Assembly: GCF_021568705.1 (NCBI RefSeq)
Contig: NZ_JAKGTH010000011.1
Location: 1 to 64,000, forward strand
DNA length: 64,000 nt
Source of the DNA: Gillisia lutea
GTDB lineage: Bacteria > Bacteroidota > Bacteroidia > Flavobacteriales > Flavobacteriaceae
Direction: 5' to 3'
This document shows positions 18,920 through 21,882 of the stretch, one piece after another. The translations under genes were made by a program, and so were the position numbers. The notes beneath the pieces were generated by a model that made no database searches, was not told the DNA's origin, and saw only the letters and a list, made by a program, of their open reading frames with translations. Position 1 is the stretch's first letter, and every line of letters begins with the position of its first letter.

Positions 18920-20236
18920 TTAATCTAAAATGAATTTAAATCCTCCTGCTATCATATTTGCCTTTAACCCAGTGTTTCTTTTATACTGATGAAATTTTAG
19001 ATCGATGCTTTTTAGCCCGAAATTCCAAATATGGAATTTGGTAAAAATATCGGTATAACTCACTCCAAAACCATACTGATTAGCGTTGAACTTAGAAAGG
19101 TCATAATCGGAAGTGTAATATTCTTCCGTGGAAAGATGCTCCTCATAGGGCGCAAAATAATCGGCTGCTGTTTGAGTATAATACCTATAAGAGGGATATA
19201 ATGTGAATTTATCGGTGATCTTAATAGGTAGTTCTATACTGGCAGTATGCGATTTTATACCCCAATCATCATTGTAATATCTGTAATAGGTTCTAACAAC
19301 GAAAATTTCATTGATAAAGTAATTCAACCTACTACCAAGAGCAACTTTAAATCGAGTTTCTGGAAGCTGTTCAATAGCATCGGCCAATTGAAAGTTTTCA
19401 ATAAAAGAATCTTCTACATCTTTAAAATACACTCTTTGGAAAGGGGTGGATAATAAGCCTTCCTGCTGAACAACATCTAATGCTAAAGAAGCTTGGAGAT
19501 TCTTGGATAGAATTTGAGAGAAACCTAGTCCTACCGAATATGAATTCCTGGTTTTACTTTCAAATTCCTGAAAAATTGGGTCATAATTGGTATCCCCTGT
19601 AATATCGTTGAATAAACTATTGCTCAAGCCATTTCCATTTTTACCGAAAGGTCTCAGTTCATATGGGTAGATCGTTTTCCAGGTATCCAGATATACGTTC
19701 GCATTAATGCTTAGTTCGGTATTTTTCTCATTAAATAATCTGGTATAACTTCCACCCAAACCGATAGAGAAATAATCAAACTCTGACGATAAAGAGGCTT
19801 TAGCCGACCAAATTTTATTCCTGTCATCTGAGCTATGACTATAGGATGCATTCATATTCGCCCAAAGGTCGCTGCTAGATGCACCGGAAGATGCTACAAA
19901 AGGATCTGCAGGTTTGCCCCCATCAAATGGATTTACATTGCTTGATGATGCCGACGTGTATGCAGATACTCCCGCGTCAATACTCAATACGTCATCGGCA
20001 TTCAATGGTATTGACACCACAAAAGTAGGAGTGAAGTCGGTTAATTCTTCCGTACCAATTCCTCCACTTACCGCGGCATTATCTCCATCCTGCGAATAAT
20101 AGCTCGTTAGAAAATCGACTTCTGTACTTTCCAGCACCCGTTTCTTATATATAAGTGTGGAATCTTGATCGGCCTCTTGTGCAGGTGAAATTACTGTTGC
20201 AAACAATAATCCTGTGATTATAAATATTTTTCTCAT
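18920..20236 (-). CDS. DUF3570 outer-membrane beta-barrel protein
   Basis: 438 residues. The signal peptide (FIITGLLFATVISPAQ) is followed by a region starting KKRVLESTEVDFLTSYYSQDG and then about 16 likely beta strands; the C-terminus ends in GGFKFILD. I recognise it as DUF3570, a predicted outer-membrane barrel of unknown role. It is the last gene of a four-gene set with the thioredoxin-like, ApbE and DUF4266 genes, and the gap to DUF4266 is only 9 bp. An SSGAS stretch (residues 116-120) is loosely like a flavinylation acceptor but lacks the Asp that precedes it in NqrC/RnfG sites. Function open. Confidence 0.85.
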   Translation of the reverse strand: MRKIFIITGLLFATVISPAQEADQDSTLIYKKRVLESTEVDFLTSYYSQDGDNAAVSGGIGTEELTDFTPTFVVSIPLNADDVLSIDAGVSAYTSASSSNVNPFDGGKPADPFVASSGASSSDLWANMNASYSHSSDDRNKIWSAKASLSSEFDYFSIGLGGSYTRLFNEKNTELSINANVYLDTWKTIYPYELRPFGKNGNGLSNSLFNDITGDTNYDPIFQEFESKTRNSYSVGLGFSQILSKNLQASLALDVVQQEGLLSTPFQRVYFKDVEDSFIENFQLADAIEQLPETRFKVALGSRLNYFINEIFVVRTYYRYYNDDWGIKSHTASIELPIKITDKFTLYPSYRYYTQTAADYFAPYEEHLSTEEYYTSDYDLSKFNANQYGFGVSYTDIFTKFHIWNFGLKSIDLKFHQYKRNTGLKANMIAGGFKFILD

Positions 20237-20245
20237 CTTAACTTT

Positions 20246-20458
20246 TTAATTACACCCACAGCCACCGCCGGTCTTTCCTCCATTAGCTCCCGATGCTGCC
20301 TCACGATAAGCCTGGAAATTGGTCTCAAATCTGTCCACTTTCTTCGAGGCCAACTCCATATCCGGGTCACTCAAATTAACTTTTTCGTATTCTTTAACTG
20401 CTACACAGGAATGCAGCGCAACCATCACGAAACCTCCTAATAATATTTTCTTGATCAT
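20246..20458 (-). CDS. DUF4266 mini-lipoprotein with C-terminal GGGCGCN
   Basis: 70 residues. A short leader with a probable lipobox (ALHSC18) would anchor the mature protein, which is only about 52 residues long. The body has EKVNLSDPDMELASKKVDRF and the C-terminus ends REAASGANGGKTGGGCGCN. This combination, in particular the Gly-rich tail with a CGC pair, is what I know as DUF4266. The two cysteines could bind metal or form a redox pair, which would suit the thioredoxin-like partner. The start codon overlaps the ApbE stop (ATGA), so translation of the two is coupled. Function not known. Confidence 0.82.
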   Translation of the reverse strand: MIKKILLGGFVMVALHSCVAVKEYEKVNLSDPDMELASKKVDRFETNFQAYREAASGANGGKTGGGCGCN

Positions 20459-21438
20459 TGAGTATCAATTTTTATGTTTTGAGAAGTATGGATATCACCT
20501 TTCTCATCGATAATAATACATTCTACTTTGGGAAGTTGATTAATTCTGTTTAAGCCTACCTCTATTCCCATCACAAAAACAGAAGTTGCCAGTGCATCGG
20601 CTAATTCTGCCTTTGGAGCAAATACAGTCACACTAATAATTCCCGTTGCGGGATATCCCGTTTTAGGATTAATGATATGGGCATATCTTTTCCCGTTGAA
20701 ATTAACATACTTCTCGTAATCGCCAGAGGTAACTACGGCAGCTTCATTCAAAGGCAATAATGCAAAAGCTTTGTCTTTATTGAAAGGGTTGGTAAGAGCA
20801 ACTTTCCAATCGGAGCCATCCGGTTGTTTTCCCCAGGTGTTCATATCGCCAGAAGCATTAATTATACCTGCAGCCACATTATTCTCTATTAAAAGTTGTT
20901 TTGCCTTATCGGCTGCGTATCCTTTTCCTATTGCCCCAAAACCGATCTTCATACCCGGTAATTTTAAATAGACACTATGGTTATTATTATCTAAAATAAT
21001 GTTCTGATAGCCCACTTTATCAACCGATCGGGAAATCTCGCTAGGTGAAGGCATTTCAGTCATACTACCATCAAACTTCCAGATCTTATCCATAGAGGCA
21101 TAACTAATATCAAAGGCACCATCGGTGAGTTTTGCAATTCCCATTGCGCACTGTATCAATTCAAATAATTCCTTATCTACCTTTACCGCTTTAATGCCCG
21201 CATTTCTATTAATTTCTGAAGTTTGTGAGTTGGAATCCCATGAGGAGATGAGCTTTTCGATTCTTGTAATCTCAGCTATTGCCAAATCGATATCTTTTTC
21301 AGCCTGAAGAGTATCATCAGCAACCACAGTAATATCAAAACGGCTACCCATTAACTTAATAGTGCGCTTATGAATCTCTTGAGAAAAGATTTGTCCCGAG
21401 AGGAATATAAGGAAGAAAGAAATTAAAAATCTTTTCAA
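20455..21438 (-). CDS. apbE: FAD:protein FMN transferase (ApbE)
   Basis: 327 residues with a signal peptide (FLISFFLIFLSGQIFS), so it acts outside the cytoplasm. ApbE attaches FMN covalently through a phosphoester bond to a Thr or Ser of target proteins, using FAD. Motifs are intact: MGSRFDITV, DGAFDISYAS, GFGAIGKGYAADKAKQLL (FAD binding), INASGDMNTWG, VTSGDYEKYV, HIINPKTGYP and the metal-binding end ELADALATSVFVMG. The target normally has a D-x-x-SGAT-type site, but no protein in the operon shows a convincing one. The gene is 3 bp from the thioredoxin-like gene and overlaps the DUF4266 gene. Confidence 0.93.
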   Translation of the reverse strand: MKRFLISFFLIFLSGQIFSQEIHKRTIKLMGSRFDITVVADDTLQAEKDIDLAIAEITRIEKLISSWDSNSQTSEINRNAGIKAVKVDKELFELIQCAMGIAKLTDGAFDISYASMDKIWKFDGSMTEMPSPSEISRSVDKVGYQNIILDNNNHSVYLKLPGMKIGFGAIGKGYAADKAKQLLIENNVAAGIINASGDMNTWGKQPDGSDWKVALTNPFNKDKAFALLPLNEAAVVTSGDYEKYVNFNGKRYAHIINPKTGYPATGIISVTVFAPKAELADALATSVFVMGIEVGLNRINQLPKVECIIIDEKGDIHTSQNIKIDTQ

Positions 21439-21441
21439 AAT

Positions 21442-21882
21442 TTAGCCTTTAAGAGCATTAAGATGTTTTATATATTCTTCCGGAGTCATTTTTTTATAAC
21501 CTGTTTTACCAAGAACTTTTCCCGATTTATCTAATATAACCACGAATGGAAAATAACCTTGTTTATTATATATTTCAGCTAACTTATTATTCTTCGCCTG
21601 CTGTTCGGGGTCTAATGCATTTTTTTGTCTTCTGGGAAAATCAGCTTTTAAAAGTACATAATGCTCGTTAGCATAAGTTTTAAAAGTTTTACTACTCCAT
21701 ATTTCATGATCTAATTTAATGCATGGGGCGCACCAGTCAGACCCTTGGAAGACTAAAATGATATCTCTATTTTCCTGAGCTGCAATTTTTTTTGCCTGCT
21801 CAAGGTCGGTTTCCCATTCTTGAGCGTTTACCAGAAATACAGAGAACAAAAGGCAGATATTAAGCAAAAAAATCTTTTTCAT
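21442..21882 (-). CDS. Periplasmic thioredoxin-like protein with CAPC motif
   Basis: 146 residues. Signal peptide KKIFLLNICLLFSVFLVNA, then a thioredoxin fold of the Thioredoxin_7/DUF255-like kind: ILVFQGSDWCAPCIKLDHEI gives the CxxC (Cys-Ala-Pro-Cys), followed by the cis-Pro region GYFPFVVILDKSGKV. It probably reduces or reshuffles disulfides, or supplies electrons, in the periplasm. It is the first gene of the cassette, and so is transcribed from the region with the 16-bp palindrome. The likely client is the DUF4266 cysteine pair, but that is an inference. Confidence 0.87.
   Translation of the reverse strand: MKKIFLLNICLLFSVFLVNAQEWETDLEQAKKIAAQENRDIILVFQGSDWCAPCIKLDHEIWSSKTFKTYANEHYVLLKADFPRRQKNALDPEQQAKNNKLAEIYNKQGYFPFVVILDKSGKVLGKTGYKKMTPEEYIKHLNALKG

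Follow-up and report, generated by a model that had tools for sequence, protein, structure and literature searches.

The closest described relatives of the gene set considered here were named among the 'DsbD systems' by Meheust et al. (2021; PMC8238504). That paper counts 285 clusters that contain DsbD, typically together with ApbE, DUF3570 (227), a thioredoxin-like protein (183) and DUF4266 (221), and another 316 four-gene clusters without DsbD. DUF3570 of Chlorobium luteolum, the only one for which flavinylation was found in print, was flavinylated by its ApbE on co-expression, and flavinylation was lost only when both sites had been changed. Redox cycling of the CXC motif of DUF4266 was proposed, and the physiological function of the DsbD systems was termed uncertain. 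The main text of the paper contains neither the word barrel nor the word lipoprotein. Here we describe a further example of this cluster, located in a 64,000-nucleotide stretch of DNA from Gillisia lutea (contig NZ_JAKGTH010000011.1 of assembly GCF_021568705.1, positions 1 to 64,000; hereafter the window). What we add is a structural model of its DUF3570 protein which suggests that the flavin-site motifs are placed on the cell-surface side of an outer-membrane barrel and that conservation is concentrated there.

The cassette consists of four minus-strand open reading frames in the order Trx (thioredoxin-like), ApbE, DUF4266 and DUF3570, with spacings of 3, -4 and 9 bp, the negative value being an overlap of ApbE and DUF4266. 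A first-pass annotation, made by a model from the sequence, had given these spacings exactly to the base, and its list of products (a CAPC thioredoxin, a flavin mononucleotide (FMN) transferase, a 70-residue lipoprotein ending GGGCGCN and a 438-residue protein) was borne out by all four reading frames and their Pfam families. These are the same four families as in the published DsbD-type cluster (PF13899, PF02424, PF14086 and PF12094), and as in that cluster apbE and DUF3570 stand together, with a PF13899 thioredoxin and a DUF4266 protein with a C-terminal CXC. Unlike the DsbD-containing clusters the cassette lacks DsbD and so falls with the published set of 316. The annotation had also presented the package as uncharacterised. 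This part has to be given up, PMC8238504 having already described it in 2021 with DUF3570 itself as the flavin acceptor at two sites in C. luteolum, while the idea of a redox package at the outer membrane that joins thiol chemistry to covalent flavin is judged to be right. The features of the cassette are as follows.

21442..21882, minus strand: first gene, exported thioredoxin-like protein (Trx), 146 amino acids, DsbH-like (PF13899, Thioredoxin_7, 1.2e-15; NCBIfam; closest solved chain 2ju5, E 7.5e-18)
21721..21732, minus strand: CAPC redox motif of Trx, residues 51-54 (WCxxC in 75/75 relatives with E < 1e-25)
20455..21438, minus strand: apbE, exported FAD:protein FMN transferase, 327 amino acids, TTG start (PF02424, 1.2e-85; matches to FMN transferases of solved structure, among them 7esa at E 1e-46)
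20246..20458, minus strand: DUF4266 small lipoprotein, 70 amino acids, Cys18 within LHSC, C-terminus GGGCGCN (PF14086, 3.7e-20)
20252..20260, minus strand: C-terminal Cys-Gly-Cys of DUF4266 (present in 37/37 copies found by profile)
18920..20236, minus strand: DUF3570, 438 amino acids, modelled 16-strand outer-membrane barrel and predicted flavin acceptor (PF12094, 7.3e-44)
19946..19957, minus strand: predicted flavin site 1 of DUF3570, TSAS, residues 94-97 (Ser97; Ala96-Ser97 in 80/80)
19877..19888, minus strand: predicted flavin site 2 of DUF3570, SGAS, residues 117-120 (Ser120; canonical [S/T]GA[S/T])

Export signals were judged by eye, and inspection of the ApbE sequence revealed no lipobox Cys.

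Barrel model and predicted flavin sites

Literature searches found no structure of DUF3570; supplements, figures and most subscription journals lay outside their scope, so that a barrel model may be in print. Other flavinylation substrates have been modelled (PMC11334425); the outer membrane is mentioned there among localisations, and DUF3570 is unnamed in the section covered. In the AlphaFold2 model built from 80 aligned sequences DUF3570 forms a beta-barrel with a mean predicted local distance difference test score (pLDDT) of 84.4 and a predicted template modelling score (pTM) of 0.81. The alignment comprised the window protein and 79 of 83 candidates, which were plus-strand copies of 370 amino acids or more; the copies from loci L109, L129, L134 and L154 (L numbers are our own locus handles) were left out. 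Sixteen strands were counted by hand, with residues 344-355 taken as one strand and 277-284 as a loop. The modelled barrel is closed, its strand number is even and its two termini lie on the side opposite the long loops, as expected of an outer-membrane barrel. When loop sidedness was assigned by strand parity, with the N-terminus placed in the periplasm and loops after odd strands therefore facing outward, the outward loops measured 9, 24, 2, 42, 33, 4, 27 and 4 residues (mean 18) and those on the periplasmic side 4, 5, 4, 4, 4, 8 and 10 (mean 5.6). Over residues ~32-438 the fold matched a BamA model (Z 21.4), 4y25 (20.8), PelB (20.6), CymA (18.6) and OmpG (17.6). The best Foldseek matches (FadL, OccK, AlgE and others) had template modelling scores of only ~0.34-0.44 by query length, and the barrel matches are therefore taken to reflect a shared general fold rather than a family; the DUF3570 profile found no relative among solved structures up to E 1. 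Fold searches of this kind can overlook families, and no weight is given to what they did not list. As modelled, then, DUF3570 is a 16-strand outer-membrane barrel, in agreement with the label of barrel that it had been given from the sequence.

The two predicted sites lie at the ends of two neighbouring strands. The first two residues of the site 1 motif close strand 3 and the last residue of the site 2 motif opens strand 4, and the two motifs thus flank the outward loop 96-119. The flavin is carried by the last residue of the motif (PMC12052999), and the flavin-bearing residues would be Ser97 and Ser120. SGAS at 117-120 fits the motif [S/T]GA[S/T] of Meheust et al. (2021), whereas TSAS at 94-97 has the Gly replaced; site 1 is [T/S][S/A]AS in all 80 aligned sequences. 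Counted by motif, 68 of the 80 copies have a [S/T][G/S]A[S/T] motif after site 1; a column-based count (57/80) misses those in which the motif is shifted. The copies in which none follows are those of L173, L185, L149, L113, L125, L111 (second copy), L112, L114, L118, L124, L131 and L137, the first three of which have TAAS at site 1. At least two motifs follow site 1 in eight of the 80 copies, and in seven of these the strand 3-4 loop has long inserts rich in Asp; the sequences of the eight suggest that such proteins may carry more than two flavins. These eight are L136, L135, L168, L178, L128, L183, L108 and L110, the last having three motifs and no Asp-rich run.

The distribution of conservation within the barrel is consistent with activity at this end. 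Strand residues were classed as inward or lipid-facing by hydrophobicity, and by height; in strands 8, 1, 14 and 15 the contrast between the two faces is weak and single assignments are uncertain. Inward residues are more conserved in the cell-surface half than in the periplasmic half, both in the 80 sequences (0.848 versus 0.666) and in a divergent set that includes distant ones (0.740 versus 0.521; 29 of the 40 DUF3570 found), differences that were reached by none of 20,000 shuffles in either set, the shuffles ignoring relatedness between sequences. Lipid-facing residues have no such slope (0.557 versus 0.588 in the 80 sequences and 0.465 versus 0.486 in the 29). In the divergent set conservation is higher in outward loops than in periplasmic turns (p 0.0006); in the 80-sequence set this is unclear (p 0.14). 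Invariant residues fall in the outer lumen or outer loops in 28 of 32 cases among the 80 sequences and in 12 of 12 in the divergent set, against a background of 201 of 400 positions, and many of them are polar or charged (Glu152, Asp184, Arg230, Arg295, Lys297, Arg319, Asp323, Arg351 and Gln355). Ordinary porins are usually most variable on their surface side. The pattern suggests that the modelled barrel has a functional chamber at its surface mouth, beside the flavins.

Conservation of the cassette and candidate thiol donors

The first-pass annotation had proposed counting how often these genes are neighbours, and the neighbourhood proved to be conserved. In 247 genomes of the window's phylum, searches found DUF3570 in 71 (20 of 122 genera) and DUF4266 in 69, all of which also have DUF3570; DUF4266 alone was found in none. 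DUF3570 lies within 1 kb of 81 of the 84 DUF4266 matches, the remaining three being on contigs without a DUF3570 match, and the adjacency of the two is far beyond chance. The sample is uneven, 41 of the 71 DUF3570 genomes coming from one family (f17), which we take to be Prevotella-like. Two sets of loci were compared. The first, 80 named loci, are the best 80 of 553 confirmed and were retrieved by DUF4266 patterns, so that DUF4266 and GGGCGC were selected for; they have DUF3570 in 80, ApbE in 74, Trx in 74 and all four in 68, and 57 have the strict order Trx-ApbE-DUF4266-DUF3570 with nothing more of these families. The second, 37 loci picked by DUF3570 (36 from the genome sample, five of them f17, and the window), have ApbE in 35, Trx in 33, DUF4266 in 36 and all four in 32. 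Together these make 117 loci, with three common to both sets. In the five f17 loci ApbE comes after Trx, DUF4266 and DUF3570, and in four of them DsbD comes after ApbE.

In the window the cassette is followed downstream by AHSA1 and DUF1801 genes (Pfam) and preceded by a divergent small-protein gene with a weak DUF6252 match below cut-off. These flanking genes are of other kinds and the operon therefore appears to be limited to the four genes. Elsewhere, f17 genomes often have several DUF3570 genes, with four in the L104 stretch (G201:C45, where one open frame has 832 codons). Eighteen of the 117 loci encode a small protein (the L151:1365-1745 family) that looks exported and has no Pfam match; in 15 it lies ~1.4-1.6 kb upstream of the DUF pair on the same strand, which places it close to where the thioredoxin gene starts. 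An E1-E2 ATPase family lies within seven genes of the cassette in 13 of the 117 loci (L144, L145, L150 and L163 are among the loci with this family or with Haem_bd). L123 is a contig binned as candidate division KSB1 whose cassette DUF4266 is 70% identical to that of the window, perhaps through a binning error or transfer. No DUF3570 relative was confirmed on viral contigs.

The DUF4266 profile found no relative among solved structures up to E 1. Cys18, of lipobox type, is invariant in the 15 aligned copies (of 37, f17 rows being left out of this alignment), and together with the constant Cys-Gly-Cys tail this would make the protein well placed as an electron shuttle from thioredoxin to barrel. 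The solved chain closest to Trx, 2ju5, is presumably Chlamydia DsbH; against the NCBIfam DsbH equivalog NF043050 Trx scores 89.4 bits, below the curated cut-off of 190. Chlamydia-type DsbH has been called a reducing oxidoreductase (PMC5193440). Electron flow from DsbD to Trx is plausible. The window's genome has two matches each for ApbE and FMN_bind and a single one for DsbD_TM, which is on contig C7 and unlinked to the cassette. Of the 41 f17 genomes with the cassette, 34 have DsbD no more than 10 kb from DUF3570 among the matches listed. The annotation had noted that the set includes no membrane electron-transfer partner; this stands for the cassette itself and does not extend to the genome, where the missing partner, to judge from these sequence matches, is probably DsbD.

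Proposed electron path and its alternatives

On balance we favour, by somewhat more than an even chance, an electron pathway from thiols to flavins with its end point in the outer membrane, the flavins lying at the cell-surface mouth of the DUF3570 barrel. ApbE would place FMN on DUF3570 in the periplasm, most likely ahead of barrel insertion; ApbE requires only a seven-residue motif (review PMC12052999), and an unfolded barrel could therefore be modified before it is inserted. Inner-membrane DsbD, unlinked here, would reduce the DsbH-like thioredoxin, which would in turn reduce the Cys-Gly-Cys tail of the DUF4266 lipoprotein, and DUF4266 would hand the electrons on to the flavins of DUF3570. 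These would sit on the strand 3-4 loop at the surface mouth of the 16-strand barrel, over the highly conserved polar lumen, and may pass electrons to an acceptor that is either external or bound to the barrel, perhaps metal ions. The order and direction of electron flow, the role of DUF4266, the acceptor and the flavinylation of the window's own DUF3570 are what we infer in this scheme.

Several observations weigh against it. The loop that would carry the flavins is poorly modelled, with residues 97-109 and 114-119 under 50, and the pattern of lumen conservation comes from DUF3570 alone, without a control barrel family. The residue before Ala96-Ser97 is Ser in 72 of the 80 copies, Ala in 8 and never Gly, and in another protein a change of Gly to Ala cut flavinylation to about half (review PMC12052999). 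This objection is tempered by the divergent set, in which site 1 is TSAS in 15, SSAS in 8, SGAS in 3, ASAS in 2 and TVPA in 1, the three SGAS copies being those of f17. The site 2 motif is missing from 12 of the 80 copies. A model of DUF4266 and DUF3570 as a read-through product, bearing on a complex that the first-pass annotation had suggested predicting, retained the barrel (mean pLDDT 74.6 versus 84.4 for DUF3570 alone) and supported no interface; the Cys-Gly-Cys tail was disordered and residues 53-78 were under 50 (block means 39, 27 and 37), the input having included 49 of the 56 unfused rows for DUF3570 and, of the 55 single rows for DUF4266, none. DsbD was found in only four of the 117 loci, all f17, by two DsbD queries with matches of at least 250 residues, a check that spans the length of each locus, some loci being short. 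The presence of DsbD was rejected as a test of dependence, DsbD_TM occurring in 246 of the 247 genomes, so that only linkage is informative. Finally, a Haem_bd family lies within seven genes of the cassette in 11 of the 117 loci, where haem may be involved.

A function in metal handling is possible but doubtful. Surface flavins would here shift the redox state of iron or copper beside metal transporters (VIT1, Cus-type efflux), either to detoxify the metals or to assimilate them, and the task of the Cys-Gly-Cys tail would be to bind metal, not to relay electrons. Outside f17, 10 of the 30 cassette genomes, from four genera, have VIT1 within ~10.5 kb of the cassette, where ~0.15 would be expected, an expectation built on an assumed copy number and genome size. 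Within seven genes VIT1 is found in 21 of the 117 loci, CusB-like genes in 23 and CusA-like genes in 18, the Cus counts standing without an expectation. Metals were put forward in PMC8238504 too, where 25 clusters with VIT1 were counted. However, each of these genes is absent from most of the loci, related species do not give independent loci, three pairs being duplicates, and of the ten VIT1 matches near a cassette one (G021:C26:277751-278020) has an internal stop codon. The window itself has no metal-transporter gene of these families beside the cassette, its VIT1 being on another contig. G021 and L169 (Flavobacterium limi) have identical DUF3570 proteins.

It is unlikely that in some lineages quinol is the electron source instead, by way of a b-type cytochrome or a Rieske protein, with the thioredoxin serving only to keep DUF4266 folded or reduced. 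Cytochrome b561 occurs in 12 of the 117 loci, a representative also matching DUF4405 just under cut-off, and DUF4405-like cytochromes have been tied to flavinylation (PMC11334425). A Rieske protein occurs in eight loci and in seven is encoded upstream of the cassette and on its strand. Both are nevertheless absent from most loci and from the window, and the counts have no genome-wide expectation. Together with Haem_bd these neighbours may be alternative donors or partners.

That the cassette is an ordinary porin operon, its flavin structural or incidental, is improbable: the fold of DUF3570 is that of many outer-membrane channels, but flavinylation of DUF3570 has been published (PMC8238504), the lumen is conserved at its outer mouth, and ApbE and thioredoxin each accompany it in 74 of the 80 named loci. 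Of the genome's two FMN_bind matches one is NqrC and the other lies away from the nqr operon. They give some room for the cassette ApbE mainly to serve Nqr or another FMN_bind protein, a reading that we regard as highly improbable, given the consistent company of ApbE and DUF3570 and the second ApbE, which follows a complete nqrA-F on another contig. With its own apbE there, Nqr need not be served by that of the cassette, which does not lie beside Nqr or Rnf genes, although the first-pass annotation had raised such a protein as the possible client. The non-nqr FMN_bind protein (G000:C10:291309-291512; L099:9031-9561) is near an IMP dehydrogenase gene and is a possible further flavinylation substrate.

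Comparison with known systems

If the thiol-to-flavin pathway is correct and flavins lie at the outer mouth, the cell surface is where the destination of the electrons could be tested, and extracellular reduction driven by thiols and free of haem would be a concrete hypothesis for a gene set that is common in the window's phylum and whose function is uncertain according to PMC8238504. The individual components have relatives elsewhere. Chlamydia DsbH is the nearest solved relative of the window Trx, which differs in falling under the DsbH cut-off and in being encoded together with a flavin system. In Nqr and Rnf, flavinylation is an ApbE-dependent covalent attachment of FMN, as is predicted here; the acceptor here, in contrast, would be an outer-membrane barrel, and the apbE is separate from that of the nqr operon.

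More tentatively, DUF3570 may be a haem-free electron outlet, in which thiol electrons from DsbD pass through Trx and the Cys-Gly-Cys of DUF4266 to at least two covalent flavins in the conserved lumen on the surface side of a 16-strand barrel, and thus a Bacteroidota flavin counterpart of the porin-cytochrome conduits. The likeness to conduits of the MtrABC type (PMC9556394) is one of function and not of barrel comparison. MtrABC has c-type cytochromes on both sides, whereas the window set has no such cytochrome and would have flavins instead; the two would work alike in that a barrel serves electron transfer across the outer membrane.

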